The position numbers were made by a program, and so were the translations under genes. Positions 1,773 through 29,420 of a stretch of DNA of 31,557 bases are shown here, one piece after another. Source of the stretch: a virus; IMG/VR virus record IMGVR_UViG_3300017786_000073, positions 1 through 31,557 of that record; one strand, given 5' to 3'. Each line of letters opens with the position of its first letter. The first letter of the stretch is position 1. The notes beneath the pieces were generated by a model. The model saw nothing but the letters and a program-made list of their open reading frames with translations. It was not told the DNA's origin and made no database searches.

Positions 1773-1786
1773 TTCTATTATATAAT
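1773..1786 (+). promoter_or_regulatory. Phage late-promoter-like motif, copy 1
   Basis: TTCTATTATATAAT directly abuts the ATG at 1787. The core TTCTATTATATA recurs before the genes at 12027, 14362 and 29421, and as aTCTATTATATA before 11268, always between genes. If TATTAT acts as the -10 box, transcription would begin at or next to the ATG, giving a leaderless mRNA. It follows the 1680-1709 terminator, as expected for a new transcription unit. Confidence 0.65.
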
Positions 1787-2431
1787 ATGCGATTACAAAT
1801 AAATAAAGATGGCAAGGAGAGTGTTTACACACTAATCAACAGTTGGAATGATGTAACACTTGATAAGTGGATTAAACTAATAAGCAAAAAAGAAAAAACT
1901 ACTAGCCAAGAAGCTATTGAAACCATTAGTGTATTGACTGATATTCCTAAAAAGTTAATCACAAAATTAAGTATCAATGATGTTGCAGCTATAATGAAAA
2001 GAATATCTTATTTACAAGAAAAATCAGATACTTCTTTAAAAAGAATTATAAGGATTAATGATATTGAGTATGGATTCCACCCAAATCTAGAAGAAATTAC
2101 ATTAGGCGAGTATGCAGACATAGAAACATATCTGAAAAATGGATTAGAACATAACCTAACTAAATTAATGTCAGTGTTATACAGACCAATAACAGAGAGA
2201 GATGGAGATAATTATTCAATAGAAGCATACGGATTAAGTAATGCTAGAATGAGGGCAGAAAAGTTTAAAAAGATGAAAGCAAAAGATGTTAATAGTTCAT
2301 TGGTTTTTTTTTGGACTTTCGTAAAGCAACTATTGATATGTTTGCAGCAGTATTTAACGGAACAGAATCTAACGATACTAAACAAAGTACAGATGAACAA
2401 TTTGCAGACAAGTGGGGTTGGTTCGGAGTGA
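1787..2431 (+). CDS. Tail assembly chaperone, upstream (zero) frame
   Basis: This 214-residue frame is the first part of a gene that appears to continue in another frame. Residues 1-175 read like a globular phage tail protein (charged, regular, no low complexity). After a run of nine T at 2304-2312 the rest (about 39 residues) overlaps a much more protein-like -1 frame. In lambda-type phages a tail assembly chaperone makes a short form and a -1 frameshifted long form (gpG/gpGT). The layout here matches that pattern: a T TTT TTT slippery heptamer in the zero frame, then a -1 frame that ends in an ATGA overlap with the next gene. The family assignment is inferred from this architecture and position in a tail block. 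Expected products are 214 residues without the shift and about 256 with it. Confidence 0.7.
   Translation: MRLQINKDGKESVYTLINSWNDVTLDKWIKLISKKEKTTSQEAIETISVLTDIPKKLITKLSINDVAAIMKRISYLQEKSDTSLKRIIRINDIEYGFHPNLEEITLGEYADIETYLKNGLEHNLTKLMSVLYRPITERDGDNYSIEAYGLSNARMRAEKFKKMKAKDVNSSLVFFWTFVKQLLICLQQYLTEQNLTILNKVQMNNLQTSGVGSE
2304..2312 (+). other. Slippery T9 run, candidate -1 frameshift site
   Basis: Nine consecutive T contain a T TTT TTT heptamer in register with the zero frame (T at 2305, codons at 2306 and 2309). Slipping back one base at 2311 reads TTG GAC and enters the downstream frame. Transcriptional slippage on the homopolymer would also join the frames. An undercounted T (true run of ten) would fuse the frames outright, so a sequencing or assembly error must be considered. 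Confidence 0.6.
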
Positions 2432-2556
2432 TGTATAGATTAACTAATGGTGAGATAATTAATTTAGAAAGAATAACTAATCTAAGTCTGTATGAATGTT
2501 TGACTTGGCTAACTTATGAAACAGATTTAAACGAAACTAAAGCAGTACAGAAATGA
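2311..2556 (+). CDS. Tail assembly chaperone, downstream (-1) frame extension
   Basis: About 81 residues in the -1 frame relative to the 1787 gene. The composition looks like a real folded domain, with FADKWGWFGVMYRLTNGE followed by a helix containing SLYECLTWLTYETD. This resembles the C-terminal part of short tail proteins in Bacteroidetes phages. The stop TGA (2554-2556) overlaps the next start (ATG at 2553), the tight coupling seen elsewhere in this genome, which argues that this frame is translated. It has no good independent start; an internal ATG lies at 2338. It is best read as the C-terminal half of a fusion made by frameshifting at 2304-2312. Confidence 0.65.
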   Translation: MDFRKATIDMFAAVFNGTESNDTKQSTDEQFADKWGWFGVMYRLTNGEIINLERITNLSLYECLTWLTYETDLNETKAVQK

Positions 2557-3047
2557 CATATTTTAAAGATTATAATAACACAATAGACACTTTAAAACAA
2601 TTAGGTGCTAATCATTATCAAATTAAAACTACATCATCAGGGGATATATATGAGATAGACTTAGAGAAAAACACAATGTACCCATTGATGCATATTAACC
2701 CTGTAAATGCAATAGCAGGAACACACGAGATGACTTTAAACTTTCAGATATTTATAATGGACTTAGTGTTTCCAGACCAATCAAATGAACAGGAAGTGTT
2801 ATCAGATTGCCTACAGATTTGTAATGACTTAATAGGTACGTTTAAAAATGGGGAAAGCCTTTTATTGTCTAACCAAGGTGTAAATGCTATACCTAAATAC
2901 TTTACAGATGGCGACATAAGTTTAGAACCATTTACAGAAAGATTTGACAGTTCAGTAACAGGTTGGGTATTTACCTTGCCGATAATAATAGAAAATGAAT
3001 ATAACACCTGTATAGCACCTCAATCTACAACTGATGCAATACAATAA
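2553..3047 (+). CDS. Tail completion/terminator-like structural protein
   Basis: This 164-residue protein has no signal peptide or membrane segment. The middle and C-terminal parts (LMHINPVNAI near residue 50, PFTERFDSSVTGWVFTLPI near 125-145) resemble a conserved tail protein of Bacteroidetes phages in which a strand-rich core ends in a 'GW.F.(I/L).I' segment. That pattern recalls tail-completion or tail-terminator proteins. Its place between a tail chaperone and neck-type proteins fits. The start overlaps the previous frame (ATGA). The exact role is not proven by motifs. Confidence 0.55.
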   Translation: MTYFKDYNNTIDTLKQLGANHYQIKTTSSGDIYEIDLEKNTMYPLMHINPVNAIAGTHEMTLNFQIFIMDLVFPDQSNEQEVLSDCLQICNDLIGTFKNGESLLLSNQGVNAIPKYFTDGDISLEPFTERFDSSVTGWVFTLPIIIENEYNTCIAPQSTTDAIQ

Positions 3048-3115
3048 TGTTTAAATTTAAAATAGGAAAATTAACAATACAACTAATACCACCAAAGATA
3101 AGTTATGAATTATGA
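3047..3115 (+). CDS. Very small possible protein (22 aa)
   Basis: An ATG overlaps the previous stop (TAATG) and opens a 22-codon frame starting MFKFKIGKLTIQLIPPKIS and ending 11 bases into the next gene. It fills a spacer that would otherwise be empty between tightly packed genes, and the stop-start overlap is the local style. No function can be assigned. It could be a leader peptide or a remnant of a longer gene. Confidence 0.3.
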   Translation: MFKFKIGKLTIQLIPPKISYEL

Positions 3116-3452
3116 AGATGTAATAGAAAAGCTAGAAGAAATAAGTATAGAATTAGAATCATATAATGACTATCCTGATTCAGCTAGTAACAATGCTAAA
3201 AAGGCGATAGAATGGAAAAAGAAAAATGGGAGTGATTGTGGAACTAGGGTTGGGTGGACTAGGGCTTCACAATTAGCAGGTAAAAAGAATATAAGCAGAG
3301 ATACCATAGCACGTATGGCTTCATTTAAAAGGCATCAACAAAATAAAGATGTTCCTTATTCTGAGGGTTGTGGTGGTATTATGTGGGATGCTTGGGGTGG
3401 AACATCAGGAATAGAATGGGCAATTAATAAATTAAAACAAATAGATAAATAA
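3105..3452 (+). CDS. Conserved phage domain protein of unknown function (CGTRVGW/SEGCGG type)
   Basis: This 115-residue protein is dominated by a highly conserved phage module: SNNAKKAIEWKKKNG, CGTRVGWTRASQLA, ISRDTIARMASFKRHQQNK and YSEGCGGIMWDAWGG. In many phages this module is found alone or fused to head proteins such as proteases or portals. Its function is unknown to me. The conserved Cys, Arg, His and Trp residues suggest a catalytic or metal-linked role, but that is inference. Here it is free-standing within the tail/neck block. ATG at 3105 follows an AT-rich 57-base spacer. Confidence 0.75.
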   Translation: MNYEDVIEKLEEISIELESYNDYPDSASNNAKKAIEWKKKNGSDCGTRVGWTRASQLAGKKNISRDTIARMASFKRHQQNKDVPYSEGCGGIMWDAWGGTSGIEWAINKLKQIDK

Positions 3453-3453
3453 A

Positions 3454-3897
3454 ATGGCAGACTTAACAACAACTCTAAGCGAATCAGTAGTCTTAAATGG
3501 TGCAGTTAGAGGAACAACAAACACAGTAACAACTACAGGGATTAATAACGTATATGAACGTATTGTAACTTGCACAACAGGGCAAACTACACACTTAGCA
3601 GCTTTTAATACTAATTCTTATGGCTCGGCAGTTCAAATAGACAAAGAAGATGTAAGGTATATTAGAGTAACTAATTTAGATGCTACAAACACTTTAGAAT
3701 TAGCAGTAGTTGGTGCAGCTACATTATACCAAGTATTACTAAAAGCAGGTCAATCACATATACTTTGTGCAGCAGAAGATGTTATGTTAGCAGAAGCTGA
3801 TACATCTCCTAGCTTTGGTACTATGGCTGATTTAACTAGCTTACAGGTTAGCCCTGCAGCTACTTTAGATGTAGAGATATTTGTAGCTAGTGTATAA
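3454..3897 (+). CDS. Putative small structural (virion) protein
   Basis: This 147-residue protein is rich in Thr, Ala and Val. Alternating beta-strand-like stretches (YIRVTNLDATNTLELAVV, YQVLLKAGQSHIL) suggest a small beta-sandwich such as a decoration or tail-associated protein. It has only two Cys, no membrane segment and no enzymatic motif. It begins one base after the preceding stop and its own stop overlaps the next ATG, so it belongs to the tail/neck operon. The structural role is inferred from composition and position only. Confidence 0.6.
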   Translation: MADLTTTLSESVVLNGAVRGTTNTVTTTGINNVYERIVTCTTGQTTHLAAFNTNSYGSAVQIDKEDVRYIRVTNLDATNTLELAVVGAATLYQVLLKAGQSHILCAAEDVMLAEADTSPSFGTMADLTSLQVSPAATLDVEIFVASV

Positions 3898-4451
3898 TGA
3901 AAGCATTAGAACGATACCTAAATAGTTTCGGTAAAGGTGTAGTAAACAAGTCTAAAGGAATACTACAAAAGAAGAAAAAAGTATCTTCAGGTGCATTATT
4001 AAATAGTATTAAATTTAATGTATTAAAAACTACTAACGGATATAAAGTAGATTTTAGCATGTTAGATTATGGCGAGTTTATTGATAAAGGTGTTTCAGGT
4101 GCAGGGGGGGGAATTAAAACAGGTAAAAACAAAGGCTTATACACAGGAGAAAGAACTTATGTTGATTTTAAAGGACAAAGGTTAAAAAGCCCATATAGTT
4201 ATACTAATAAAATGCCACCAACAAGGGCTTTAGATAAGTGGACAGTTAAAAGGGGTATAGCACCTAGAGATGCTAGAGGTAGGTTTTTAACAAGACAAAG
4301 TTTGAAGTTTGCAATAGCTAGAAGTATTTTTATAAAAGGTATCCAAGGTGTAAGTTTTTTTCAAAAACCTTTACAATTAGAATTAAGGGGGTTTACAACA
4401 GAAGTAATCAAAGCATTTAAACAAGATATATTAAATAATTTAAGAAAATGA
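3897..4451 (+). CDS. HK97 gp10-like neck / head-tail completion protein
   Basis: This 184-residue basic protein has the outline of HK97 gp10-type head-tail joining proteins: an N-terminal helix, a SSGALLNSIKF segment (about residues 31-41), a YGEFIDKGVSGAGGG segment (58-72) like the 'YA.(Y/F)(V/I)E.G' strand of this family, a basic arm, and a C-terminal helix (TTEVIKAFKQDILNNL). Members sit at the neck between connector and tail tube. Start and stop both overlap neighbours (TAATGA and ATGA types), so translation is probably coupled. It is somewhat longer than usual (about 120-150) because of an insertion rich in Gly, Lys and Arg at about 68-120. Confidence 0.7.
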   Translation: MKALERYLNSFGKGVVNKSKGILQKKKKVSSGALLNSIKFNVLKTTNGYKVDFSMLDYGEFIDKGVSGAGGGIKTGKNKGLYTGERTYVDFKGQRLKSPYSYTNKMPPTRALDKWTVKRGIAPRDARGRFLTRQSLKFAIARSIFIKGIQGVSFFQKPLQLELRGFTTEVIKAFKQDILNNLRK

Positions 4452-5884
4452 GTTTAGTAATAGAACAAAAACCATTATACAAGACATTACCTGTAGGTCA
4501 AGATATAATTTTCACTGTATCAGACAGCACAATAGTTGCAAATAATTTTAATGTAAAATTTGTAGCTTATGTATATGTAAGTAATAATAATGCAAATTTA
4601 AACACCACTACTAATAGGGTGGCAGTATTAAAAACAACACCTAATAACACAGGTGTAGGTATATTTTCTATGCAACCTGTTTTAGAAAGTTTTGTTAAAC
4701 CTGATAATAATGGTACTGATTTTTTAAATGGTAGTACATATAAGACAGTTACTTATTCTAACACAAGCCCACACCCTATTCATTTAATTGATAAATATGC
4801 AACATCAAACAATGCTGCTAAATATTTTATGGTAGAATTTTTTTTAGAATACTCTCCAACTATAGATGGTGTTGTAACTATAGATAATTCAAATTCAGTT
4901 TTGTCTGAACCTCGTTTATTTTACAATGGGTATTTGAATTTTGATGAAGTTCTGAATCAAGTAGGTAATAATTATGGTTACCCTTTGTCTGATTTAAACT
5001 ATGTTATGGATGCTTCTAATTCATATTTTTTAAGTAATGCACCTACCACACAATATGCAAGATTAACTGATTATGGAACTTTACCTTTTTTTAATTTTTT
5101 ATCTACAGGAGATTATTCTTTTCAAACAGGTTCTGATACTGCAACAATTTATAAAATACATTACTTTTCTATAAAACTATATAATAGTTCTAACACACAA
5201 TTAACAGGTATAACTTCTTTTGTTAATTTTACTAATGGTTCTGCCACCACACCTAACCAATATGCAAATTGTAGGATTAATTACTTCGGTGCTTTTCCTG
5301 CTAACTTAGATGGTTGGAGTTCACAATGGAATTCACATAAAGCTAATACAAGCTATTACACTATACAAGCATTTGATGATGACAACCAAATTATAAGTCA
5401 ATTATACACAATAAATATGATATCAGATGATTGTAAAGGTTATGAAAGTGTAAGATTAACTTGGTTAAACCCACATGGGGTTTGGGATTACTATACATTT
5501 ACTAAAAAGTCGGTAAGGTCATTACAAACTAAAAGGACTTCTTACACACAACTAGGGGGTACTTGGAATGAAAGCACATATAAGATAAATGGTTTCAAAG
5601 GTGGTAAGAAAAACTTTAGGTTAAATTCAAAAGAACTAATAACAATAAATACTGATTTTTTAATTGATGCTGATGCTGTTTGGTTTGAAGATTTAATAAA
5701 TAGCCCTGAAGTATATATACTTAATGGTTATTCATCAGATGCTAATGGTATGGTAAATAAATATGTAGAGCCTGTTATATTAACTACATCTAGCTATACT
5801 AGGAAAACCAAAGTAAATGATAAACTAATACAATATACATTTGAATTAGAAAAAAGTAAAAATAATAGAATACAACCTGCATAA
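4448..5884 (+). CDS. Large tail/baseplate-like structural protein
   Basis: This 478-residue protein is rich in Asn, Thr, Ser and Tyr and predicted mostly beta. Recognisable segments are an N-terminal strand region, a WFEDLINSPEVYIL segment near the C-terminus, and VRLTWLNPHGVWDYYTF around 335-352. The last resembles the core of tail proteins in Bacteroidetes phages that are usually found beside the tape measure and hub genes. Its start overlaps the neck gene by four bases and its stop overlaps the next ATG. No signal peptide or catalytic site is visible. A distal-tail or baseplate role is an inference from size, composition and neighbours. Confidence 0.6.
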   Translation: MSLVIEQKPLYKTLPVGQDIIFTVSDSTIVANNFNVKFVAYVYVSNNNANLNTTTNRVAVLKTTPNNTGVGIFSMQPVLESFVKPDNNGTDFLNGSTYKTVTYSNTSPHPIHLIDKYATSNNAAKYFMVEFFLEYSPTIDGVVTIDNSNSVLSEPRLFYNGYLNFDEVLNQVGNNYGYPLSDLNYVMDASNSYFLSNAPTTQYARLTDYGTLPFFNFLSTGDYSFQTGSDTATIYKIHYFSIKLYNSSNTQLTGITSFVNFTNGSATTPNQYANCRINYFGAFPANLDGWSSQWNSHKANTSYYTIQAFDDDNQIISQLYTINMISDDCKGYESVRLTWLNPHGVWDYYTFTKKSVRSLQTKRTSYTQLGGTWNESTYKINGFKGGKKNFRLNSKELITINTDFLIDADAVWFEDLINSPEVYILNGYSSDANGMVNKYVEPVILTTSSYTRKTKVNDKLIQYTFELEKSKNNRIQPA

Positions 5885-8667
5885 TGAGTGTTCAACTAAT
5901 ATTATACCCACAAAACTATCAAGGGGTTTATCAATCTAACTCTAGTGTTATAACTACTAACTTAGTTGCAGATGGTTCTCGGTTTACATCAATATCTAGT
6001 CATAGTGGTTACAGTTCTTCAACAAGCGACCCTGCATTTGATGCAATAACTAATGATGCACCAATAAGTAATTGGAAAAAGTTTAGGTCGCAAGGAAGTA
6101 CTGCTTTTGCAAATGTAGATTTTCCTATTGTTATATCAGGTTTTAACCCTAAACTAAGATTTAGAGCAGCATCAGGGGGTACTAATTCAAGTAGTGGTGT
6201 ATACCAAACAATAAACAATTTAGTAGTAGGTGCTTCATATCAATTAAAATTTAGGGTAGTCAATGCAGCATCAGGGGGGTTTATATTTATAGGTGCTAAT
6301 GGTTATGGTAACAATTTAGGTGGTGGTGGTGTAACTGCTATATCAACCACAGGAACAGGTTTTAAGACATTTGATTTTACAGCAGTAAATTCATCAGAAG
6401 AACTTATAATGGATTACCAAAATGATGGTGCTGATGCTATAGATATAAGAAGAATAACAATTAAAGGTGCAGGTGCCACCCCACCAATAGTATTTACTGA
6501 TTTAGCAGATGGACAAGTTATATGCGACTTATATGAAGATGAAGATATACCATTAAGCCTTTCTATTGATGACTTTAAAAATGTAGCTGAAAAAACACAA
6601 AGTTATTCTAAGGACTTTAACTTACCTGCTACTAAACGAAACAATAGAATATTTACACAAATATTTGAGATAACTAATTCTGTAGAAAGTAACGCAGAAT
6701 CTTTTAACCCTTATGTGCAAACACAATGTGTATTAAAACAAGATGGAAATATTATTTTTAGGGGTTTTTTAAAATTAATTGATATAGTTAATAAAGAAGG
6801 GGAAATAAGCTATAACGTAAATTTATATTCTGAATCAATAATATTAGTAGATGTGTTACAAAATAAACTATTTAGAGATTTAGATTTTTCAGAACTAGAA
6901 CACGAATATAACAAAACAAATATAGTTAATAGTTGGTATGATAGCACAGGTATAACCTTAACAGAACCTTTAGCTGCTAATTCTTTTGCAGGTGCAGTTA
7001 ATGACACCACAACTACTGTTTTAAAATACCCTTTTGTTGATTGGACAGGAGATTTAACAGTAAACAATTCTACTAACTTTCCTATATTAAAAAAATTAGA
7101 AGATGCTTTTAGACCTTTCATACAATGTAAATATATATTAGATAATATATTTAATGATGCAGGCTTTACATATACATCAACTTTTTTAAACAGTTCTACA
7201 TTTACTAATTTATTTATGGACTTTAATTGGGGTGCAGGAAATGCACCTATCGATTTAGGTAGTAATTCAGAAGTTGGTATTTATAGAAATTTATCAGCAC
7301 ATTATGCAGGAACAAGCTATACTAATTTAAAAATTAATTTAGATGCTTTAGGTGGTTCTTTTGGTTCAAGTGTTGATTATAACACTACTACTAATAAAAT
7401 AACATCAGTTAATAACAATAGTACATATAATTTAAATTATTGGTACGAAATAATAGTTCAAAGCAATTTCCCTAACCATCAATATTCTACAAGATGGTTT
7501 ATAACAAGAAATAATGGTACTACAGAAGAAATAGATTTAGTCCCTTTAACAAGTGCAAGTGGTATAGTAACTTATCAAGGAACTGTATCTATAATATTAG
7601 ATGCAGGGGAAACTGCTGAAGCACAATTCAAAGCATCTGCTGCTAACCAAGTGTACCAAAGATATGACACTATAAACACACCACCTACACTTAATTTTTC
7701 ATCTATATTTATAACTAGGTCTGTAGATGGTATAACAGATTCTACTTTACTAAATAATTTAAGGGGGGATTTAGGGCAATGGGATTATTTAAAAAGTATT
7801 ATTAATATGTTTAATTTAATTATTAGGCAAGATGAATCTAATCCTACTAATTTATTAATAGAAACCTACGACACTGTGTTTAATGACATCAGTAAGGGTT
7901 TAACTTTATCAGAAAGAAATATTACACACGATTGGACAAATAAAATAGATGCTACTGAAATTAAATTAACACCTTTAGATTTAATTAAGGAAACTATATT
8001 TGATTACTCTGAAGATGAAGAAGATTATTGTGGTAATTTATATAAAGAAACTTTTAACGAAACTTATGGGGGTAAAAAGTTTATTGCAAGGGGTAACACT
8101 TTATTTGTAGGAAGCGAAGAAATAGAAGCTATGGCATTTGCTGCTACAGTTGTTAAACCTTTATTTGACTTTACCCCACAATTTATTACACCTGCTATAT
8201 TTTCTAAAGATAGTGGAACATATCAGAGTTTTGATAATTTACCTAGAATATTATACAAAACATCTGCTATTCCTTTTACAATGACTGATGGTACTTCTTA
8301 TAAGATACCTGCACAAAATGGGGTAGGAGAAACTGCTGCTGAAACAAGATTTTTACAATTTAGCCATACTACAGATATGCTTCCTCAAAACACATCATTA
8401 GATTTAAACTTTGGTTCTCATCAATTAATAGGGATACCGACTAATACTATACATAGTTTATATCAAGAATATTGGTCTACATATTTTGATGAGTTATATA
8501 ATTTTGACACAAAGTCAATGACACTTAAAGTTAATTTGAATGCAGCAGATATTAATCAATTTAATTTTAACGATAAAGTTATTATTATGAACAGGGCATT
8601 TAGAGTAAATAAAATAGATTATAAACCGACAGATTTATCTACAGTTGAATTTATACTTATACCATAA
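5884..8667 (+). CDS. Tail hub / minor tail protein with N-terminal carbohydrate-binding-like domain
   Basis: This 927-residue protein is the largest product of the genome. Residues about 1-200 form a beta-rich region resembling a carbohydrate-binding module. A second region starts near 205 (GQVICDLYEDEDIPLSLSID) and continues with SQ-type segments such as KTQSYSKDFNLPATKRNNR and VLKQDGNIIFRGFLKLIDI. That region is typical of large tail-hub proteins in Bacteroidetes phages and prophages. The C-terminus (NDKVIIMNRAFRVNKIDYKPTD) resembles the end of hub or baseplate proteins. It probably forms the tail tip that contacts the host surface. It overlaps the genes on both sides by one base (TAATG). 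Confidence 0.65.
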   Translation: MSVQLILYPQNYQGVYQSNSSVITTNLVADGSRFTSISSHSGYSSSTSDPAFDAITNDAPISNWKKFRSQGSTAFANVDFPIVISGFNPKLRFRAASGGTNSSSGVYQTINNLVVGASYQLKFRVVNAASGGFIFIGANGYGNNLGGGGVTAISTTGTGFKTFDFTAVNSSEELIMDYQNDGADAIDIRRITIKGAGATPPIVFTDLADGQVICDLYEDEDIPLSLSIDDFKNVAEKTQSYSKDFNLPATKRNNRIFTQIFEITNSVESNAESFNPYVQTQCVLKQDGNIIFRGFLKLIDIVNKEGEISYNVNLYSESIILVDVLQNKLFRDLDFSELEHEYNKTNIVNSWYDSTGITLTEPLAANSFAGAVNDTTTTVLKYPFVDWTGDLTVNNSTNFPILKKLEDAFRPFIQCKYILDNIFNDAGFTYTSTFLNSSTFTNLFMDFNWGAGNAPIDLGSNSEVGIYRNLSAHYAGTSYTNLKINLDALGGSFGSSVDYNTTTNKITSVNNNSTYNLNYWYEIIVQSNFPNHQYSTRWFITRNNGTTEEIDLVPLTSASGIVTYQGTVSIILDAGETAEAQFKASAANQVYQRYDTINTPPTLNFSSIFITRSVDGITDSTLLNNLRGDLGQWDYLKSIINMFNLIIRQDESNPTNLLIETYDTVFNDISKGLTLSERNITHDWTNKIDATEIKLTPLDLIKETIFDYSEDEEDYCGNLYKETFNETYGGKKFIARGNTLFVGSEEIEAMAFAATVVKPLFDFTPQFITPAIFSKDSGTYQSFDNLPRILYKTSAIPFTMTDGTSYKIPAQNGVGETAAETRFLQFSHTTDMLPQNTSLDLNFGSHQLIGIPTNTIHSLYQEYWSTYFDELYNFDTKSMTLKVNLNAADINQFNFNDKVIIMNRAFRVNKIDYKPTDLSTVEFILIP

Positions 8668-9512
8668 TGAATTATAAAAAAGGCTTTAAAATAAAACCAT
8701 TAAAAATTAGTAAATCAGGAGAGGTTTTTTTCACTGATGGAACTAACGAATTAGTGCCAAACCAATTATCTTGTGAAGCATATGGTTATAAATACAATGC
8801 AGACACAGGAACTTGTGTGGCTTATGATTTTAACACTAAATTAGACAGGTTTTTTAATAATATAAATAATAATCAATTAGGTGCAGATAATACAACTGAA
8901 AGGGCTACTAATAAAACTTTATTAAATGGCACAGACAATAAAACAAAAGGAAACAATAATAATTGTTTTGTAAATGGTAGGCAACACGAAATATCTAGGG
9001 GTTTAAATGATACATCTATTATATCAGGTAGGTTTGGGTTAGCTTCTAACCAAGGAGAAGTCGTGTTTAGTGGTGGGGGTTTTGGTGAAAAGCTAGGAAT
9101 GTCACAAACTTCTTTTATTCAACAATCAGGAAATACAACAAATGGAACAGAAACATCTTTGCTTACACAAAATATACCATTAACATATATTCAGAAAGTA
9201 AAAAACTCTGTAATAGGGTTTGAAGCTAATGTAATAGGTGTAAATACAGGGGTAGGAGAGGGAACAACAGGACAGTATGGATATGTGCAAGTAACAGGTG
9301 CAGTAAAGTTTACAAATGGATTGGCTTCTACTTACCACCAAGCTACAACACATATTGTTCAGTCAGGACACAGTGGTATGAATATAACTGCACAAATGAA
9401 AGATGTAACTGCAACATCTTTTGGAATAGCTGTAACAGGATTAGCAGAAACATATATACAATGGACTGCTGACATTAAATTATTTAGAAATAACATACAA
9501 CAAACTTTTTAA
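8667..9512 (+). CDS. Tail fibre/adhesin-like protein
   Basis: This 281-residue protein starts with a small segment (FKIKPLKISKSGEVFFTDG) that may dock to the preceding hub. A Cys-containing short region follows, then an Asn/Gly/Thr-rich stretch (about 75-150) with the periodic look of a beta-helix or trimeric stalk. A strand-rich C-terminal domain includes GQYGYVQVTGAVKFTNG and FGIAVTGLAETYIQWTADIKL. Such architecture is typical of tail fibres or adhesins. It lies between the hub and tape measure genes. The assignment is by composition and context. Confidence 0.55.
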   Translation: MNYKKGFKIKPLKISKSGEVFFTDGTNELVPNQLSCEAYGYKYNADTGTCVAYDFNTKLDRFFNNINNNQLGADNTTERATNKTLLNGTDNKTKGNNNNCFVNGRQHEISRGLNDTSIISGRFGLASNQGEVVFSGGGFGEKLGMSQTSFIQQSGNTTNGTETSLLTQNIPLTYIQKVKNSVIGFEANVIGVNTGVGEGTTGQYGYVQVTGAVKFTNGLASTYHQATTHIVQSGHSGMNITAQMKDVTATSFGIAVTGLAETYIQWTADIKLFRNNIQQTF

Positions 9513-9515
9513 GAT

Positions 9516-11231
9516 ATGAGTGAAGAAAAAATGGTATTTTCAATAGAAGCAGATGTTAAACCTGCTACTAAACAAGTTGATGATTTTACAAAATCTTTGA
9601 CTACTGCTGAAAAAGCACAGAAAGAATTAAACGAACAAATAAGCATACAGAATAAAGTTTTAAATGATTTAGAAAAAGAACTTGTTGAATTAAAATCTAC
9701 ACAAGATGCTATACCTAAAGGTGCATTTTATGCAGGTATGGACGACCTTAATAAAAAAATAAAAGAAACAGAAAAAAACATAAAACTTGAAAAATTAGGT
9801 TTAAAAGATTTACAAAACCAACAAAAAGATAATAATAATGAGATAAAAGAACAGACTAAAGCATTAAAAGAAACAAATAAAGAAGCTAAAGATTCTATTG
9901 GTAATTTTAAGGTAATGGGTGTTTCTATAAATGGTATTAAGACATCTATAGGTAAAGTTATTCCTCTTATAAAAACTATGTTTGGTACAATTAAAGCAGG
10001 TATAATGTCTACAGGAATAGGTGCTTTACTTATAGCTTTTGGTTCTCTAGCTACTTATTTTACTTCAACACAAAGGGGTGCAGATAAATTAAAACTAGCT
10101 TTAACAGGGGTAAGTGCAGCATTTAATGTAATTAGAGATAGAATATCATCAGTAGGAGAAGCTGCAAGTTTGTTTTTTTCAGGTAAATTTTCAGAAGCTG
10201 TAGATAAACTTAAAGGTAGTTTTACAGGTTTAGGAGATGAAATAAAAGAAGAAGTAGCTTTAATGACTGCTTTAGAAAAAAGAACACAAGCACTTAGAGA
10301 TGCAGAAATACAATTTACAGTACAAAGAGCAAAAACAAGAAAAGAGATAGAAAAAGCAAGGTTATTAGCAGAAGATGAAACTAAATCTCAAGAAGTAAGG
10401 GTAGAAGCATTAAAAAAGGCTTTAAAATTAGAAAAAGAAACCACAAACCAAGAACTAGAATTAGCTAGAGAAAGGGTTAGAATACAAGAAGAACAGATGG
10501 CAGTATCTGAAAACCTTGTAGAAGATGAAAAGAAATTAGCTGATTTTAAAGCAGATGTAATTAATAAAGAAACTAAGTCATTAAGGTTACAAAAAAGGGT
10601 TAAAACAGAAATAAATGAATTAAATAGGGAAATAGAAGCAGAAGAAAAAAGAATAGCAAAAGAAAAAGAAGACAGGGAAGAAGAAGCTAGAAAGAAAAAA
10701 GAAGCAGCAGATAAAAAAGCTGCTAAAGATGCAGAAGATTTAGCTAAAAAACAAGCTAAAGAAATTTTAGACATAGCAAAAGCAACAGAAAATGCTAAAG
10801 AAAATCTAATTAAACAAGGTTTTGCAGTTGCAGGGGAATTAGCAGGGGAAAATGCAGCTTTGTCTAAAGGTGTGGCAGTAGCACAGACAGTCTTCAGCAC
10901 ACAACAAGCTATAATGGCAGCATTAGCAGCAACATCAGTTGGAGATAAACTTTTACCTTACCCATTAAGATTAGCTAATGCAGTAGGAGCAGGTATTATG
11001 GGTGCTTCTGCTATTAAAAATATATTATCAACAGGCACAGATGGTTCAGGTGCAAATGTTTCAGCACCATCAGTACCATCAGCAGGAACACCTGCACCTG
11101 AAATGTTAAGTGGTAGGTTTGAATTAGGGGGAACACCTGAACAACAACCTGTTGAAGCCTATGTAGTTACAGACAACTTAACAGATAATCAGAATAAACT
11201 TGCTTATATACGTAGGAGAGCAACAATTTAA
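9516..11231 (+). CDS. Tape measure protein (short)
   Basis: This 571-residue protein has long Lys/Glu-rich coiled coils (about 30-128 and 245-420) around a hydrophobic segment at 160-185 (MSTGIGALLIAFGSLATYF followed by a Ser/Thr/Gln patch). A second Ala/Gly-rich hydrophobic region lies near 440-500. This is the usual tape-measure architecture: the protein fills the tail tube during assembly and sets its length. Using the common rule of about 1.5 angstrom per residue, the tail would be roughly 85 nm, which is an estimate. It is the last gene of the tail block. The C-terminus ends in a basic RRRATI. A minus-strand frame across the coiled coil is a shadow. Confidence 0.75.
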   Translation: MSEEKMVFSIEADVKPATKQVDDFTKSLTTAEKAQKELNEQISIQNKVLNDLEKELVELKSTQDAIPKGAFYAGMDDLNKKIKETEKNIKLEKLGLKDLQNQQKDNNNEIKEQTKALKETNKEAKDSIGNFKVMGVSINGIKTSIGKVIPLIKTMFGTIKAGIMSTGIGALLIAFGSLATYFTSTQRGADKLKLALTGVSAAFNVIRDRISSVGEAASLFFSGKFSEAVDKLKGSFTGLGDEIKEEVALMTALEKRTQALRDAEIQFTVQRAKTRKEIEKARLLAEDETKSQEVRVEALKKALKLEKETTNQELELARERVRIQEEQMAVSENLVEDEKKLADFKADVINKETKSLRLQKRVKTEINELNREIEAEEKRIAKEKEDREEEARKKKEAADKKAAKDAEDLAKKQAKEILDIAKATENAKENLIKQGFAVAGELAGENAALSKGVAVAQTVFSTQQAIMAALAATSVGDKLLPYPLRLANAVGAGIMGASAIKNILSTGTDGSGANVSAPSVPSAGTPAPEMLSGRFELGGTPEQQPVEAYVVTDNLTDNQNKLAYIRRRATI

Positions 11232-11254
11232 AAATCAAATATTAATTAAATAAA

Positions 11255-11267
11255 TCTATTATATATT
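11255..11267 (+). promoter_or_regulatory. Phage late-promoter-like motif, copy 2
   Basis: TCTATTATATATT directly abuts ATG at 11268, in a 36-base spacer after the tape measure gene. It matches the core of the other copies except for the first base. A 13-base stretch just upstream (AAATATTAATTAA) is also found upstream of the copy at 29407. It would start the head-morphogenesis unit. Confidence 0.6.
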
Positions 11268-11999
11268 ATGCCTTGTAAACAATGTGGAAAAAAATGGAAG
11301 TGGGGAGAAAATGGAGAGTGTAAATACGATTCTAAAGAAGCTTGTGAAAAAGCTAACCCTAAACACTATGAAAGTCTTAAAAGCACTAAGATAGTTGAAT
11401 TAGTAATTAGTGATGAAAGCGAAGAACTAACTATTGATGCTATAAGTCTAGTAACAAGCCCTGCTATTGAGCAAGATTTTGTATTCTTTGGTAAAGAAAA
11501 GAACAACTTGACACTAGCTAAGGTAGATGAAGAGAAACGTATGCTAGTTAGTCCTGCATTAATACCTAATAAACAGATATTTAGATACGACCCAAATACA
11601 GATAGTGATTATTATGTATATTTTTCTAAGGACACAGTTAAACAAGCTGCTGAACTCTATTTAAAGCACAATAACCACCACAAGGCGACTTATCAGCACG
11701 AAGAAAGGGTATCAGGTGTATTGACTATAGAAAGTTGGATTAAGGAAGGCGATATGGACAAATCAAAGCTATATGGCTATGACTTACCTGACGGAACTTG
11801 GTTTGTAAAAATGAAGATTGAAAATGATGAGATGTGGGAGAAAATTAAAGGTGGCGAGTTAAAAGGCTTAAGTATTGAAGGTTACTTTATAGACAAGATG
11901 GAGAAGATGTCAGAAACTGTAAAACCATCTAATGAAGAAATACTTTCAGCATTAAATGAAATTATACAAGATATCAAAAATCAAACAAAAGGAAAATAA
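11268..11999 (+). CDS. XkdF-like prohead protease with N-terminal Cys cluster
   Basis: This 243-residue protein has an N-terminal mini-domain with Cys at 3, 6, 18 and 26 (CKQCGKKWKWG...C...C), which looks like a small metal-binding knuckle. The remainder resembles the XkdF family, proposed phage serine proteases that mature the prohead: conserved features are LVTSPAIEQDF, ALIPNKQIFR, YLKHNNHHKATYQHE, VSGVLTIESWI, PDGTWFVKMKIENDEMW and GGELKGLSIEGYF. Proteases of this type cleave the scaffold and capsid N-terminus. Scaffold-like and capsid genes follow in order, supporting the role. A promoter-like motif abuts the start, so the mRNA may be leaderless. Confidence 0.8.
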   Translation: MPCKQCGKKWKWGENGECKYDSKEACEKANPKHYESLKSTKIVELVISDESEELTIDAISLVTSPAIEQDFVFFGKEKNNLTLAKVDEEKRMLVSPALIPNKQIFRYDPNTDSDYYVYFSKDTVKQAAELYLKHNNHHKATYQHEERVSGVLTIESWIKEGDMDKSKLYGYDLPDGTWFVKMKIENDEMWEKIKGGELKGLSIEGYFIDKMEKMSETVKPSNEEILSALNEIIQDIKNQTKGK

Positions 12000-12011
12000 T
12001 TCTATTATATA
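12000..12011 (+). promoter_or_regulatory. Phage late-promoter-like motif, copy 3
   Basis: TTCTATTATATA just after the protease stop. Unlike the other copies it lies 15 bases before its ATG (12027), separated by an A-rich stretch. This copy supports a promoter rather than a translation signal, because the spacing to the start codon is not fixed. Confidence 0.6.
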
Positions 12012-12026
12012 AAAAAAGAACTAACT

Positions 12027-12722
12027 ATGGATTTAAAAAAACAAATATTAGTAGCACTTGGTCTTGATAAGCAAGATGAGGTTGCTTTAGAATATCAAGC
12101 AAAATTGGAAGATGGTACTTTGATAGTATCTACTTCTACAAATTTAGAAGCAGGTGTGGACATATCTGTTTTAACTGAAGATGGTTCAACAATGTTACTT
12201 CCTGTTGGAGAATACAAGACTGAAGATGGTCAAAGGTTCTCAGTAGAAAAAGATGGGGTAGTTGCTGAATTATATTCTGATGAAGTAGAAAAAGAAACAG
12301 AAGGAGAACCTGTTAATGAGGAAATGGGTAATGAAAAAGATGAAGATGAGTATGAAGATGATGGTAAAGAAGCTGATGTAGAAGATTGGGCAGGTATGGA
12401 AAAACGTATCAAAAACCTTGAAGATGCAGTAGCTGATTTAAAGAAAGACAAAGTAGGAAATGATGAAGTTGAAGAATCAGATGTTGAAATGAACTCTGAC
12501 ACAGAACCAACTCCTAAGAAAGTAAAAACTACAGAGGAAATAGAATTTGAATATCAAGCTAAGATAGATGAATTAAAATCTAAGGTTGTTGAGTTATCTA
12601 ACCAACCTGCTGATACTCCTGTAGATACTAATAAATTTAGCACAAACAAAAAAGATTCTACTCCTGATTTAAGAAAAATGACAAAAAGGGAAAGAATTTT
12701 ATACAATTTAACTAATAATTAA
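12027..12722 (+). CDS. Scaffold-like / prohead core protein
   Basis: This 231-residue, strongly acidic protein has an N-terminal small beta region (residues 1-90), an Asp/Glu-rich middle (about 90-125 and 145-165), and heptad-like helices (MEKRIKNLEDAVADLKKDK; EFEYQAKIDELKSKVVELSN). It ends in a basic tail (KMTKRERILYNLTNN). Acidic coiled-coil proteins between protease and major capsid genes are usually internal scaffolds removed by the protease. It has no enzymatic motif. A minus-strand frame here is a Ser-rich shadow. The role is by position and composition. Confidence 0.65.
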   Translation: MDLKKQILVALGLDKQDEVALEYQAKLEDGTLIVSTSTNLEAGVDISVLTEDGSTMLLPVGEYKTEDGQRFSVEKDGVVAELYSDEVEKETEGEPVNEEMGNEKDEDEYEDDGKEADVEDWAGMEKRIKNLEDAVADLKKDKVGNDEVEESDVEMNSDTEPTPKKVKTTEEIEFEYQAKIDELKSKVVELSNQPADTPVDTNKFSTNKKDSTPDLRKMTKRERILYNLTNN

Positions 12723-12740: not shown

Positions 12741-13652
12741 ATGGCTTTTACAGTAACTAGTAACTATGCAGGTAAGGCAGCAGGATTTTATATCTCGGCA
12801 GCACTTAAAGAAGCAACTTCTTTAGACCACTTAACTGTATTACAAAATATAAAGTATAAAGAAAACTTACAAAAAGTAGCAGGTTCTAATTTAGTTAGAA
12901 ATGCTGATTGTAACTTTACAGACCACGGAACACTAGCTTTAACAGAAAGTATCTTAACACCAAAAATGTTACAGATTAATATGCAAACTTGCAAGGACAC
13001 ACTTCTATCTTCTTGGGAAGCTGATACAATGAGAGCAGGTGCTATGAATAACAATTCTCCTAAATTTGAGGACTATGTTATTTCTTACTTTACACAACAT
13101 ATTGCTGATGCAGTTGAATCTTCAGTTTGGAGTGGTGCTGCTGCAACTAACGGACAGTTTACAGGGTTTTTAACTGCTACAACAGGTGCTTTCGCTACAG
13201 GGGGTGCAGTACAAGTAAATAATGTAGGTGGTGCAGGTACGGCTTATACTGCTGCAAATATTATTGCTAACTTACAATCTATAGCTGCTGCAATTCCTTC
13301 TAATATTTATGGAAAAGAAGATTTAAGAATCTATATGAATTGGAAAACTTACAGATTATATGTATCGGCTATTTCAGCATTAGGATATGTAAATATGTAT
13401 TCAATGAATAACGACTATGAAGCTACTTTTGAAGGTATTAAATTAGCAGTTGTTTATGGAATGCCTGATAATAAATTAGCTGCTGCACAAGTATCTAACT
13501 TATTCTTTGGAACTGACCTGTTAAGTGATACGACACAAGTAAAAATGCTTGATATGTCTCCACTAGATGGAAGTGAGAACCTAAGATTTGTTGCTAAGTA
13601 TTCTGCAGGTGTACAAGTAGGTATCGGTGCTGAAGCAGTACAACAAGACTAA
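12741..13652 (+). CDS. Major capsid protein
   Basis: This 303-residue protein immediately follows the protease and scaffold-like genes, is highly expressed-looking (A-rich leader, own terminator), and is Ala/Asn-rich with few Cys. Segments such as LTESILTPKMLQINMQTCKDTLLSSW, which covers about residues 68-93, and VFGTD/LRFVAKYSAGVQVGI at the C-terminus match capsid proteins seen in Bacteroidetes phages, which have an HK97-like fold. It forms the icosahedral shell. The strong 13666-13690 hairpin directly downstream is consistent with a highly transcribed gene needing an end signal. Confidence 0.85.
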   Translation: MAFTVTSNYAGKAAGFYISAALKEATSLDHLTVLQNIKYKENLQKVAGSNLVRNADCNFTDHGTLALTESILTPKMLQINMQTCKDTLLSSWEADTMRAGAMNNNSPKFEDYVISYFTQHIADAVESSVWSGAAATNGQFTGFLTATTGAFATGGAVQVNNVGGAGTAYTAANIIANLQSIAAAIPSNIYGKEDLRIYMNWKTYRLYVSAISALGYVNMYSMNNDYEATFEGIKLAVVYGMPDNKLAAAQVSNLFFGTDLLSDTTQVKMLDMSPLDGSENLRFVAKYSAGVQVGIGAEAVQQD

Positions 13653-13665
13653 TAACTAATTATAT

Positions 13666-13690
13666 GGAGAGAGGGTTTTTCCCTCTTTCC
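13666..13690 (+). terminator. Hairpin terminator after major capsid gene
   Basis: GGAGAGAGGG (13666-13675) pairs with CCCTCTTTCC (13681-13690) around a five-T loop. The 10-bp stem has one G-T pair. It lies 13 bases after the capsid stop codon. The T-tract after the stem is interrupted, so it may be a partial terminator or an mRNA-stabilising hairpin. Confidence 0.7.
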
Positions 13691-13712
13691 TTAACTTTTA
13701 AAACAAAAATAA

Positions 13713-14297: not shown

Positions 14298-14328
14298 AAA
14301 GGAACTACTTCGGTAGTTCTTTTTTTTT
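14298..14328 (+). terminator. Strong intrinsic terminator (UUCG tetraloop)
   Basis: GGAACTAC (14301-14308), loop TTCG, GTAGTTCT (14313-14320), then a run of T to 14328. The stem closes with C-G around a UUCG loop, an exceptionally stable tetraloop, and has flanking A/T pairing. This is the most canonical terminator in the genome. A promoter-like motif begins 20 bases later. Confidence 0.93.
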
Positions 14329-14347
14329 CCAAACAAAATCAATGTTT

Positions 14348-14361
14348 TTCTATTATATAAT
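14348..14361 (+). promoter_or_regulatory. Phage late-promoter-like motif, copy 4
   Basis: TTCTATTATATAAT abuts ATG at 14362, identical to the copy at 1773-1786 over 14 bases. It directly follows the strong terminator at 14298-14328, so a new transcription unit (fibre, portal, lysis genes) is expected to start here. Confidence 0.7.
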
Positions 14362-20957: not shown

Positions 20958-21536
20958 ATGGCAGGATATGTACTATTCATAAGTGAAGATAAGCTAAAAG
21001 ATTCAACTGCAATCAATATGAATGTGGATGTAAATTTCTTATTGCCTTATGTAAAAATCGCACAGAAAAAATATGTAGAAACTAAACTTGGTACTAATCT
21101 GTTTGTAGCAATACAAGGAATGATTAGTGGGGGAACAATTAGTAACCCTGCAAATGCTAACTACAAAACATTGTTAGAAGATTATGTAGCTGATATGTTG
21201 GTTCACTATGCTTTTTATGAGGTATTACCTTTTTTAAGATATAAGGTACAAAATAACAATGTAGTTTCTAAGACTGCTGAAAACTCTACACCTTTAACTA
21301 GGGCAGAAGCACAAGACCTTAGGTCAGAAATATCAAATACTGCACAATTTTACACAGAAAGACTAGTGGATTATTTATGTAACAATTCTAGTTTGTTTCC
21401 TGAATACTCTACAAATAGTGGTGCTGATGTTTCTCCTAATTCAAATGCTTATTACCAAGGAATGAACCTAGAAAGACCTGATAAACAAGATACTAAAATT
21501 ACAATTAGAGATTTTTTAGACACTACATATAATTAA
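20958..21536 (+). CDS. Head-tail connector/adaptor protein (DUF6712-like)
   Basis: This 192-residue, mainly helical protein starts with a short strand region (YVLFISEDKLKDSTAINMNVD). It continues with the helix pattern LPYVKIAQKKYVETKLGTNLF, followed by YKTLLEDYVADMLVHYAFYEVLPFLRYKV and a helix with FYTERLVDYLCNN. This is the layout of small helical adaptor proteins that dock under the portal, and in Bacteroidetes phages matches the DUF6712-type family. Its place directly after the portal supports the role. Confidence 0.7.
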   Translation: MAGYVLFISEDKLKDSTAINMNVDVNFLLPYVKIAQKKYVETKLGTNLFVAIQGMISGGTISNPANANYKTLLEDYVADMLVHYAFYEVLPFLRYKVQNNNVVSKTAENSTPLTRAEAQDLRSEISNTAQFYTERLVDYLCNNSSLFPEYSTNSGADVSPNSNAYYQGMNLERPDKQDTKITIRDFLDTTYN

Positions 21537-23279: not shown

Positions 23280-23311
23280 TTTGGTTGGTAAATATAATTT
23301 TTTTAAATTTG
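23280..23311 (+). promoter_or_regulatory. Bacteroidetes-type early promoter
   Basis: TTTG (23280-23283), 20 bases, then TAAATTTG (23304-23311) match the known Bacteroidetes consensus TTTG / TAnnTTTG. Transcription would start around 23317, giving a leader of roughly 17 bases before ATG at 23335. It heads the early and replication region, so it should be read by the host sigma factor soon after infection. Confidence 0.8.
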
Positions 23312-23627: not shown

Positions 23628-23970
23628 AATACCTACACCCACCCCTTTAACTGATGAAGAATATGCTCAGTTACAAATTCAACACGAACTAGAAAGGCAA
23701 AAAAGACTACTCACTTATGACAATAGAATTGTAAAAGCTGATTTAGTTTACTACAAAGGTTATATCGCTGCATCAGGAACTGATTATAATTTAAACAAAA
23801 AGTTTGCTGATATAGAATCAGGTATAAACTCTGTTGTTATGGTTGGTACTGAAAGGCAAATGGCTGCTGATGATACAATATATAATATAACAGGAACTTA
23901 TTCATATAACTTAACAGAAGAAATGTTAAAGGAATATGAAGCTAACGATAAACAACTTTTAATAATATGA
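23620..23970 (+). CDS. Early protein of unknown function
   Basis: This 116-residue protein begins with a Pro/Thr-rich tip (MDRIPTPTPLTDEEY), then a charged helix (LQIQHELERQKRLLTYD), then a mixed region with DLVYYKGYIAASGTDYNLN and a C-terminal TYSYNLTEEMLKEYE. It has no recognisable domain, signal peptide or membrane segment. It overlaps both neighbours by a few bases, so it is part of the early operon. Confidence 0.6.
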   Translation: MDRIPTPTPLTDEEYAQLQIQHELERQKRLLTYDNRIVKADLVYYKGYIAASGTDYNLNKKFADIESGINSVVMVGTERQMAADDTIYNITGTYSYNLTEEMLKEYEANDKQLLII

Positions 23971-27539: not shown

Positions 27540-27548
27540 AATATTTTC

Positions 27549-27556
27549 TATATTTG
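27549..27556 (+). promoter_or_regulatory. Host-type promoter (-7 box) before the sigma-like operon
   Basis: TATATTTG fits TAnnTTTG exactly and lies four bases before ATG at 27561, so the transcript would be almost leaderless. No good TTTG lies about 20 bases upstream, so it may need help or be weak. It would put the sigma-like gene under host control, before the late promoters. Confidence 0.55.
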
Positions 27557-27560
27557 GAAT

Positions 27561-27917
27561 ATGACTAAACCCATATTTGCAAATACAATGCATCAGATAA
27601 TTGTAAATGATTATTTGAACCTAATGATGTCCTTTGCAAAGGAAATATCTACAAAGACAAAATACCAAAATTTTAAAGAAGTACTAGAACTAATTATTGA
27701 ATACCACAATAGTTATGGGGAAGATGTTTCAATGGGTAATTGGAATGATTGGTTAATGGTTATACCTATTAATACTTCGGTAATGGTTAATGGTTACTTT
27801 GCAGGATTATCCACAAGAAATAACTCAGAAATAATAAAATCGTATAAATTATTGTTAGACAATAGTTTAGAATTATTAGTCAGAGATTTAAAAGATATAG
27901 AATATAATAATGAATAA
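27561..27917 (+). CDS. Unknown protein upstream of the sigma-like gene
   Basis: This 118-residue, mainly helical protein has no membrane segment or known motif; notable segments are MHQIIVNDYLNLMMSFAKE and MGNWNDWLMVIPINTSVMVNG. It follows the TATATTTG box and overlaps the sigma-like gene by eight bases, so the two are co-transcribed. It could regulate the sigma-like factor. Confidence 0.55.
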   Translation: MTKPIFANTMHQIIVNDYLNLMMSFAKEISTKTKYQNFKEVLELIIEYHNSYGEDVSMGNWNDWLMVIPINTSVMVNGYFAGLSTRNNSEIIKSYKLLLDNSLELLVRDLKDIEYNNE

Positions 27918-28470
27918 AATATATCAAGCAGTAGCAGATTGTAGAAAGACATTCGTAGAGATGTCTTACACTTTTACGCAAGATATAAATGAGATAGAAG
28001 AAGCAGTTCAAGAGTTGATGTTGTATTTTATGCAAATGAACCCTGAAACACTAAAGTCTATATATGAAAAAGATGGAACAAAAGGTATTATCAGGTATGG
28101 TGCAGTTGTATTAAGAAGAAGTTACACAAGTACACGAAGTCCATATTATTATAAATATAAAAAATACTACACACATATTGACACAAGTTCAACTAATATA
28201 ACTTATGATATAATAGAGAAAGATGATAACCACAGAAAGCATTTATACAATATTCCTAATGCAAAAGAATACCAACAATGGCAAAAGTTAGAATTAATCG
28301 ACAAAGCATTAGATGATTTTTATTGGTATGATAGAGATGTATTTAAGTTATACTATTATGAAGGAAACACCTTGACAGGACTAGCAAAAAAAACAGGCAT
28401 AAGCAGGAATAGTCTTTTCACGACTATAGACAAAGTTAGAGAACAACTTAAAGACTTGCTTGATGAATAA
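27910..28470 (+). CDS. Sigma-70-like / HTH transcription factor
   Basis: This 186-residue protein has an N-terminal helical region (about 18-75; DINEIEEAVQELMLYFMQMN, GIIRYGAVVLRRSY) similar in position to sigma region 2. A Tyr/Lys-rich linker (KYKKYYTHIDT) follows. The C-terminal HTH (151-180; EGNTLTGLAKKTGISRNSLF followed by TTIDKVREQL) has the sigma region 4 pattern, preceded by DRDVFKLYYY. It is probably a phage sigma-like factor that redirects host RNA polymerase. The five TTCTATTATATA sites are its candidate targets. A terminase-small-like HTH protein would be an alternative, but a terS is already present. Confidence 0.65.
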   Translation: MNKIYQAVADCRKTFVEMSYTFTQDINEIEEAVQELMLYFMQMNPETLKSIYEKDGTKGIIRYGAVVLRRSYTSTRSPYYYKYKKYYTHIDTSSTNITYDIIEKDDNHRKHLYNIPNAKEYQQWQKLELIDKALDDFYWYDRDVFKLYYYEGNTLTGLAKKTGISRNSLFTTIDKVREQLKDLLDE

Positions 28471-28861
28471 ATTTTTAGTTAGTGATAAGGTTTACAAAGA
28501 CAGGCTAGACATCTGTAAAGGTTGTGATTATTACTTCAGACCTACAGGAAGTTGTAAAGTGTGTTTGTGTTTTATGTCCATTAAGGCTAGGATTAGTTTA
28601 ATGGAATGCCCACAGAAGTATTGGTTAAAGACTAAGGAAATTGAACAACCTGAAGGAATACCTGAAGAATTAATTGAAGAAGTATTAACGATATGGAAAG
28701 ATATAAAAACAGGAATAGCAAAAAATCAAGCAACTAAAAAAAGAATGATAACATTATTTAATACAATTTATGGAACTAACTACGACACAGGAACAAGTTG
28801 TGGTACTTGTCTTAGTGATTGTTTTAAAGGAATAAAAAGAATATATGAAAAATACAGATAA
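28463..28861 (+). CDS. Cys-rich metal-binding protein, two Cys clusters
   Basis: This 132-residue protein starts at ATG 28463; a TTG one codon earlier is not needed. The N-terminal part has CKGCDYYFRPTGSCKVC, then CFMSIKARISLMECP, a zinc-ribbon-like set with five or more Cys, found in many phages. The C-terminus has a second cluster, SCGTCLSDCFKGIKRIYEKY. The middle is helical (EELIEEVLTIWKDIKTGIAK). The N-terminal module is common in phages, but its function is unknown to me. It overlaps the sigma-like gene by eight bases and the next gene by 17. Confidence 0.7.
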   Translation: MNKFLVSDKVYKDRLDICKGCDYYFRPTGSCKVCLCFMSIKARISLMECPQKYWLKTKEIEQPEGIPEELIEEVLTIWKDIKTGIAKNQATKKRMITLFNTIYGTNYDTGTSCGTCLSDCFKGIKRIYEKYR

Positions 28862-29090
28862 GACACCTAATTATTATAAAGGAAAAGTATATGGTTATAA
28901 AGCATTTGATATAATAGAAGATTTTGAATTAAATTATAATTGTGCCACTGCACTTACTTACATTTTAAGAAGTGACAGAAAACATAACAGTCCAACAGAA
29001 TGTTTGCAAAAAGCCATAGACCATTTAAATAATGAGCTAAAAGTATTAGAAAAAAAGAAAAAAAAGAATGTAAGGATAAGTCATATATAA
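28845..29090 (+). CDS. DUF3310-like small protein
   Basis: This 81-residue protein fits the DUF3310 pattern: PNYYKGKVYGYKAFDIIEDF (9-28), NYNCATALTYILRSDRK, and a helix AIDHLNNELKVLEKK. DUF3310 proteins are widespread in phages, sometimes fused to or near nucleotide kinases; their role is not established. The C-terminus is very basic. The stop codon lies inside the left arm of the following hairpin. Confidence 0.85.
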   Translation: MKNTDKTPNYYKGKVYGYKAFDIIEDFELNYNCATALTYILRSDRKHNSPTECLQKAIDHLNNELKVLEKKKKKNVRISHI

Positions 29091-29146
29091 AGGAGAGTAG
29101 GCATATTGCCATAATAATTATTAAATGTTTTTATGCTCTCCTTTAT
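29087..29146 (+). terminator. Structured RNA hairpin with nested elements
   Basis: An 11-bp stem pairs ATAAAGGAGAG (29087-29097) with CTCTCCTTTAT (29136-29146). Within the 38-base loop lie GGCA-tat-TGCC (29100-29110) and the palindrome TAATAATTATTA (29112-29123). The left arm includes the stop of the DUF3310-like gene. It may end transcription or be a processing or regulatory RNA. The loop is unusually large for a simple terminator. Confidence 0.65.
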
Positions 29147-29161
29147 TTAAAATAAAATACT

Positions 29162-29395
29162 ATGTTAAAATATCAATGCAATAAATGTGATATACAAAAA
29201 GAACTAAGCAAAGTAACTATGAAAGTTATAGATGGAAAAGTAGTTAATCTTGGTACTGAATGCCCTGAGTGTGGAGAATATATGATAGAAATAGAAAAGG
29301 CATTTGGTGGTTTTCCTTCGCTTAAAAGAACTGAACCTACTTTGTCTAATAGAAAAGACAAGCTATGGAGTAGGGCAAAAGACAGATTAAACTAA
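29162..29395 (+). CDS. Small zinc-ribbon protein
   Basis: This 77-residue protein has CNKC (6-9) and CPEC (about 34-37), a four-Cys zinc ribbon. A conserved tail AFGGFPSLKRTEPTLS and a basic end follow. Such 'GGFP...RTEP' proteins are common small phage products of unknown function, possibly binding nucleic acid. It sits alone between the structured hairpin and the promoter-like motif at 29407. Confidence 0.7.
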   Translation: MLKYQCNKCDIQKELSKVTMKVIDGKVVNLGTECPECGEYMIEIEKAFGGFPSLKRTEPTLSNRKDKLWSRAKDRLN

Positions 29396-29406
29396 ATATT
29401 AATTAA

Positions 29407-29420
29407 TTCTATTATATACT
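29407..29420 (+). promoter_or_regulatory. Phage late-promoter-like motif, copy 5
   Basis: TTCTATTATATACT abuts ATG at 29421. It would start a unit of ParB-like, glycosyltransferase, dioxygenase and both terminase genes, which runs through the circle junction to the terminator at 1680-1709. The upstream AAATATTAATTAA stretch is shared with copy 2. Confidence 0.65.

Follow-up and report, generated by a model that had tools for sequence, protein, structure and literature searches.

A predicted bipartite late promoter and its candidate phage-encoded sigma factor in uncultivated marine phages with Flavobacteria-like hosts

Introduction

The closest described systems in which a phage serves its non-early genes with its own sigma factor are those of Salmonella phage 7-11 and phage phiEco32. 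Phage 7-11 encodes SaPh711_gp47, a sigma factor with a region 4, and has bipartite late-gene promoters of the consensus GTAAtg-(16)-aCTA, with the early genes left to the host sigma; its host is enterobacterial, the published account makes no mention of leaderless starts, and its authors expect that other sigma/promoter pairs are "yet to be described" (PMC8948821). Transcripts of the 7-11 type start 6–9 bp from the downstream element in a sigma-dependent manner. In phiEco32, the gp36 middle/late promoters consist of a single element, tAATGTAtA, with starts 6–8 bp downstream of it, and gp36 has no recognisable region 4 (PMC8948821, PMC4331800). In Bacteroidota, the primary sigma reads TTTG/TAnnTTTG, not TATAAT, and in F. 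johnsoniae the start site lies 4 nt past the end of the TAnnTTTG box (PMC6847099).

Here, we describe a predicted promoter/sigma pair in a viral DNA stretch of 31,557 nucleotides (IMG/VR record IMGVR_UViG_3300017786_000073), analysed at its full length and referred to below as the window. An initial annotation had proposed that a recurring motif in this DNA is a phage late promoter giving leaderless mRNAs.

Results

The record is complete and of the circular type, with 123 identical bases at both ends of the window, and is densely coding: intergenic DNA makes up 941 of 31,434 bases (~3%). A megablast search of the window against cultured phages gave no match, and tRNA and Rfam scans of it were both empty. 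Similarity of the terminase and capsid proteins to their counterparts in Flavobacterium phage 11b, Cellulophaga phi10:1 and Nonlabens P12024S makes a marine Flavobacteria-like bacterium the likely host. Within the packaging unit, a gene resembling TET-associated glycosyltransferases (PF20691) and, after it, a Tet/JBP oxygenase-like gene (PF12851) occupy 29959–31457, a pair that forms a candidate DNA hypermodification cassette.

The 12-mer TTCTATTATATA occurs at 1773, 12000, 14348 and 29407, and the variant ATCTATTATATA at 11254. The five coordinates given in the initial annotation were all exact: every copy lies on the + strand, none is inside an ORF, and each heads a packaging, head or tail unit. 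The form TCTATTATATA was counted five times on the + strand and never on the − strand, and TCTATTATATANTATG four times and never, respectively, with a reversed control also giving zero. Markov models of order 1–4 predict 0.011–0.019 copies of TTCTATTATATA on the + strand, a value that applies to this exact, post hoc chosen 12-mer only, and for it the earlier estimate of well under one copy by chance therefore holds. A chance repeat in AT-rich DNA could account for the copy number as such, as some 12-mer reached at least four copies in 8 of 60 (order 3) and 14 of 60 (order 5) simulated genomes (13–23%), and the window itself holds a second 12-mer with four copies, TTAGAAAAAGAA. Copy number alone is thus unremarkable post hoc and insufficient to reject chance; the evidence proper is placement, strand and conservation. 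With five of five copies intergenic and sense, and with the same positions kept among relatives whose sigma proteins are as little as ~53% identical, the probability of a chance repeat is negligible, and conservation is what rejects it.

The motif stands at matching places in 29 capsid-related loci. Ten near-complete genomes, one of them the window, have 40 sense copies, all in intergenic DNA before late genes, and a single antisense copy, within an ORF. The sense copies take up five recurring positions: ahead of the tail genes, the maturation protease, the scaffold/capsid genes, the gene of the 14362 type and the packaging genes. In 78 further sigma loci, exact motif copies numbered 71 in the sense orientation vs. 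one in the antisense orientation. Seven loci (L043, L061, L070, L071, L077, L088, L090) carry a palindromic form, TTCTATTATATAATAGAA, well upstream of the start codon.

A second element, T[AC]AA[AC][CT]AAA, emerged at −19 to −11 relative to the motif in 59 dereplicated sites, separated from the 12-mer by a spacer that carries no information in these sites. The genome is A-rich, as is the element, which weakens the element as evidence. Allowing up to two mismatches, the joint pattern matched six sites in the window vs. 0.21 expected, namely the five named promoters and one antisense site at 23879. Motif and upstream element together have the sequence organization of a bipartite promoter. A scan of the whole collection with this pattern matched at least 120 stretches, and a scan of genome contigs turned up a single relative; its bin is labelled Pseudooceanicola, and it is probably a misbinned phage contig. 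The viruses with this predicted late promoter are a family of uncultivated marine phages with likely Flavobacteria-like hosts, known almost only from metagenomes.

The five predicted promoters, all on the + strand, cover the late genes as follows. The promoter at 1754–1784 combines TAAACTAAA (1754–1762) with TTCTATTATATA (1773–1784) and precedes a unit of tail genes with a tape-measure-like protein (1787–11231). At 11235–11265, TCAAATATT (11235–11243) and ATCTATTATATA (11254–11265) stand before a gene for a head-maturation-protease-like protein (11268–11999), and at 11981–12011, TCAAACAAA (11981–11989) and TTCTATTATATA (12000–12011) stand before a scaffold-like gene (12027–12722) and the likely major capsid gene (12741–13652). 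The promoter at 14329–14359, built of CCAAACAAA (14329–14337) and TTCTATTATATA (14348–14359), heads a tail/portal unit, and the one at 29388–29418, with TAAACTAAA (29388–29396) and TTCTATTATATA (29407–29418), precedes ParB-like, glycosyltransferase-like and Tet/JBP genes and, on the circular genome, the terminase subunits.

The claim that two of the copies follow terminators stood in one case: a good intrinsic terminator in the sense orientation (14298–14323, +) precedes the 14348 copy, but the hairpin at 1680–1709, 3′ of the gene for the terminase large subunit, has its T-tail on the − strand. On that strand, an antisense host-type sequence, TTG-N19-TATATTTG (1740–1769), overlaps the late promoter at 1773. 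Another intrinsic terminator (13666–13690, +) lies 3′ of the capsid gene, in the gap 13653–13712, and the gene that follows at 13713 is without a late motif.

The distance between the motif and the start codon separates a promoter from a signal acting in translation initiation or in the mRNA leader. The ATG follows after 2 nt at four window sites and after a 15-nt spacer at 12000. Across 112 distinct sites, the gap is exactly 2 nt in 38, as a translation signal could produce; the rest mostly show 3–37 nt, the upstream element nevertheless keeps its spacing to the motif, and the motif is found at unit heads only. A fixed internal spacing combined with a variable start codon is explained by a promoter and not by a translation signal, which the variable distance rules out and which we regard as hardly credible.

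The likely start of transcription is indicated by a dinucleotide TA at +13/+14 from the first base of the motif: of 36 dereplicated sites without an ATG at this position, 20 carry it (p ~1e-9, counting related sites as independent). This initiator-like TA supports a transcription start at its A. The messages from four promoters would then most likely begin with AUG, at 1787, 11268, 14362 and 29421, each the A of the ATG, and the message from the 12000 promoter would most likely start at 12014 with a 13-nt leader. The term "leaderless" in the initial annotation thus fits four of the five window sites, where the conserved TA would place the A at the ATG, but many relatives carry leaders, and leaderlessness is for that reason no fixed property of the system. 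The host mRNAs of F. johnsoniae, which are mostly leadered, also count against the leaderless reading (PMC6847099).

The gene at 27910–28470 (+) encodes a 186-aa protein that we propose as the late sigma factor. Profile matches were weak, with Pfam Sigma70_r4 below its cut-off (E 0.0027; 17.6 bits vs. 24.1) and PHROG sigma families at E ~0.007, and tblastn detected no relative of the protein in cultured phages. An AlphaFold2 model had a mean pLDDT of 72.8, with ~90 for most of residues 1–72, ~80 for residues 130–180 and a disordered linker; a second run with a more diverse alignment brought no gain (69.7). In a fold search with this model, the top PDB matches were all sigma factors (E. coli sigma-E, Z 9.9). 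Residues 1–80 superimposed on region 2 of SigR (rmsd 1.7, Z 9.2) and residues 119–186 on region 4 of sigma-E bound to −35 DNA (rmsd 3.5, Z 9.5), so that the modelled protein would consist of regions 2 and 4 only, as do ECF (group 4) sigma factors. The product is most likely an active sigma that reads the late promoter. Among the proteins scanned, which are part of the ORFs, none matched a phage RNA polymerase.

Sigma gene and motif tend to occur together: among sigma loci spanning at least 12 kb, 56 of 58 have the motif, and the sigma gene is present in 19 of 29 motif-bearing records, the other ten being mostly fragments, together with two apparent chance matches and one chimeric contig. This co-occurrence is not independent evidence, since both features share their phylogeny. 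The chimeric contig, record G017 (L250/L251), was considered as a counter-example, with a motif and no sigma gene, and was rejected: it contains two different early regions, breaks off within NinG, immediately short of where the sigma gene would be expected, and is apparently a chimera within IMG/VR.

The sigma gene overlaps at its start with a 118-aa gene (27561–27917, +), which adjoins it in the relatives examined. The product of this neighbour had no confident family match; it is possibly a partner of the sigma or an anti-sigma.

A host-type −7 box, TATATTTG (27549–27556, +), precedes the pair, 4 nt from the ATG at 27561, and is the proposed promoter of both genes. TAnnTTTG was found ahead of the sigma pair in 134 of 143 loci (antisense control, 0), and its gap to the ATG of the gene running into sigma was 3–4 nt in 133 of the 143 and 8 nt in one. 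Given the 4-nt distance from box to start in F. johnsoniae, the message of the sigma pair may therefore be leaderless too. Host-type boxes 4 nt before an ATG also occur in cultured flavophages (L115, L347), for example at 21116 in 11b and at 13709 in P12002L. The early region of the window is preceded by a predicted host-type promoter, TTG-N20-TAAATTTG (23281–23311, +). Of the early-region heads of 50 distinct relatives, 49 had TAnnTTTG (mean of shuffles 8.2; 14 on the antisense strand) and none had the late motif. In the window, the heads of the early region and of the sigma pair resemble Bacteroidota primary-sigma promoters, unlike the late heads (PMC6847099). The upstream element, the sigma-like gene and the host-type promoter feeding that gene were absent from the initial annotation; its central proposal, a phage late promoter, has strong support in the fixed spacing of the second element, the late-only position across dozens of relatives, the 2–37 nt gap to the start codon and this early/late split.

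We compared the late heads of the window with those of four cultured flavophages. This comparison covers five phages only, and heads within one phage are not independent. Phage-specific boxes are found at 5 of 9 late heads in the window and 5 of 9 in P12024S, and at none in 11b, phi10:1 and P12002L, the three phages for which no sigma match was detected. Host-type TAnnTTTG, counted at late heads with a gap of at least 20 nt, shows the opposite distribution, with 0 of 9 in the window, 0 of 9 in P12024S, 6 of 7 in 11b, 5 of 8 in phi10:1 and 2 of 6 in P12002L. P12024S encodes gp33, a protein with a sigma region 2 above the Pfam cut-off (PF04542), and its late genes carry boxes of the form AAACNAA-N14-CGTTA (5 sites vs. 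0.13 expected). Like the window, P12024S has at its late units an AAACAAA-like upstream element (AAACAAA-N14-CGTTAATA), boxes abutting the ATG and a sigma gene just upstream of the packaging genes; the downstream element differs, and similarity between the two sigma families is weak (hhalign E 0.005, probability 6.8%). A hunt for intermediate sigmas with an altered promoter returned almost exclusively TTCTATTATAT[AT], so the covariation of sigma and promoter rests on one jump, that to P12024S.

Discussion

We consider it probable that the late promoter is bipartite and is read by the host core RNA polymerase together with the phage ECF-fold sigma, in a sigma cascade with starts at the A of TA. 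In the proposed mechanism, the host sigma would transcribe the early genes from TAnnTTTG promoters (23281–23311) and the sigma pair from the box at 27549–27556; the phage sigma (27910–28470) would then redirect the host core polymerase to the five late promoters of the packaging, head and tail genes. These would have the form T[AC]AA[AC][CT]AAA-N10-TTCTATTATATA-N-TA, with TTCTATTATATA as the downstream, −10-like half and transcription most likely starting from the A of TA, which lies 14 bases past the first base of the motif. A further proposal, which we put forward tentatively and hold to be somewhat doubtful, is that the sigma-pair mRNA and most late mRNAs are leaderless, whereby virus production would largely bypass leader-dependent translation initiation, with the 27561–27917 product acting as a sigma partner.

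Two other ways of reading the late promoter were weighed. The host primary sigma could act together with an activator of the phage that binds the AAACAAA-like element, comparable to MotA in T4, and the 27910 protein would then act elsewhere: TATTAT in the motif is one base from TATAAT, the position of the upstream element would roughly suit an activator box, and two conserved early genes (28460–28861 and 29162–29395, zinc-ribbon-like) could encode DNA-binding proteins. We regard this as unlikely, since TATAAT is not what the primary sigma of the host phylum reads (PMC6847099), TAnnTTTG is absent from the late heads, and the genome encodes a protein modelled with a sigma fold and both domains that read DNA. 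A scan for E. coli-type sigma-70 promoters found no more of them than in shuffled sequence (93 vs. 98.2; 58 vs. 60.3). ECF promoters in general have a spacing and an AAAC core akin to those of the late promoter, and a host alternative (ECF) sigma could thus be the reader; yet related phages without a sigma gene have TAnnTTTG at their late heads, so that late transcription there does not usually run through host ECF sigmas, and we consider this reading very unlikely.

The sigma cascade that we favour is close to that of phage 7-11: the window combines sigma regions 2 and 4 (in the predicted fold) with a bipartite element before late genes only, and would leave its early genes to the host sigma. 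The window promoter would work like that of 7-11 and differs in consensus, host phylum and predicted leaderless starts. Its sequence does not follow the 7-11 consensus, the likeness drawn to SaPh711_gp47 is one of predicted function, and an initiator-like TA at +13/+14 hints at where its transcripts may start (PMC8948821). With phiEco32 the window shares a proposed phage sigma for non-early genes, an AT-rich downstream element and a comparable predicted start distance, whereas its promoter has two elements and its sigma a region-4-like fold (PMC8948821, PMC4331800). A literature search, mostly outside subscription papers, found no description of this promoter/sigma system.

Overall, these results position the window system as a candidate for the sigma/promoter pairs foreseen by the authors of phage 7-11 (PMC8948821). 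With the promoter signature, late genes could be called across hundreds of contigs, and P12024S, a relative in culture, opens the idea of a matched sigma and promoter to experiment. Should the leaderless starts prove true, these phages would allow leaderless translation to be studied in a phylum already devoid of Shine–Dalgarno signals.
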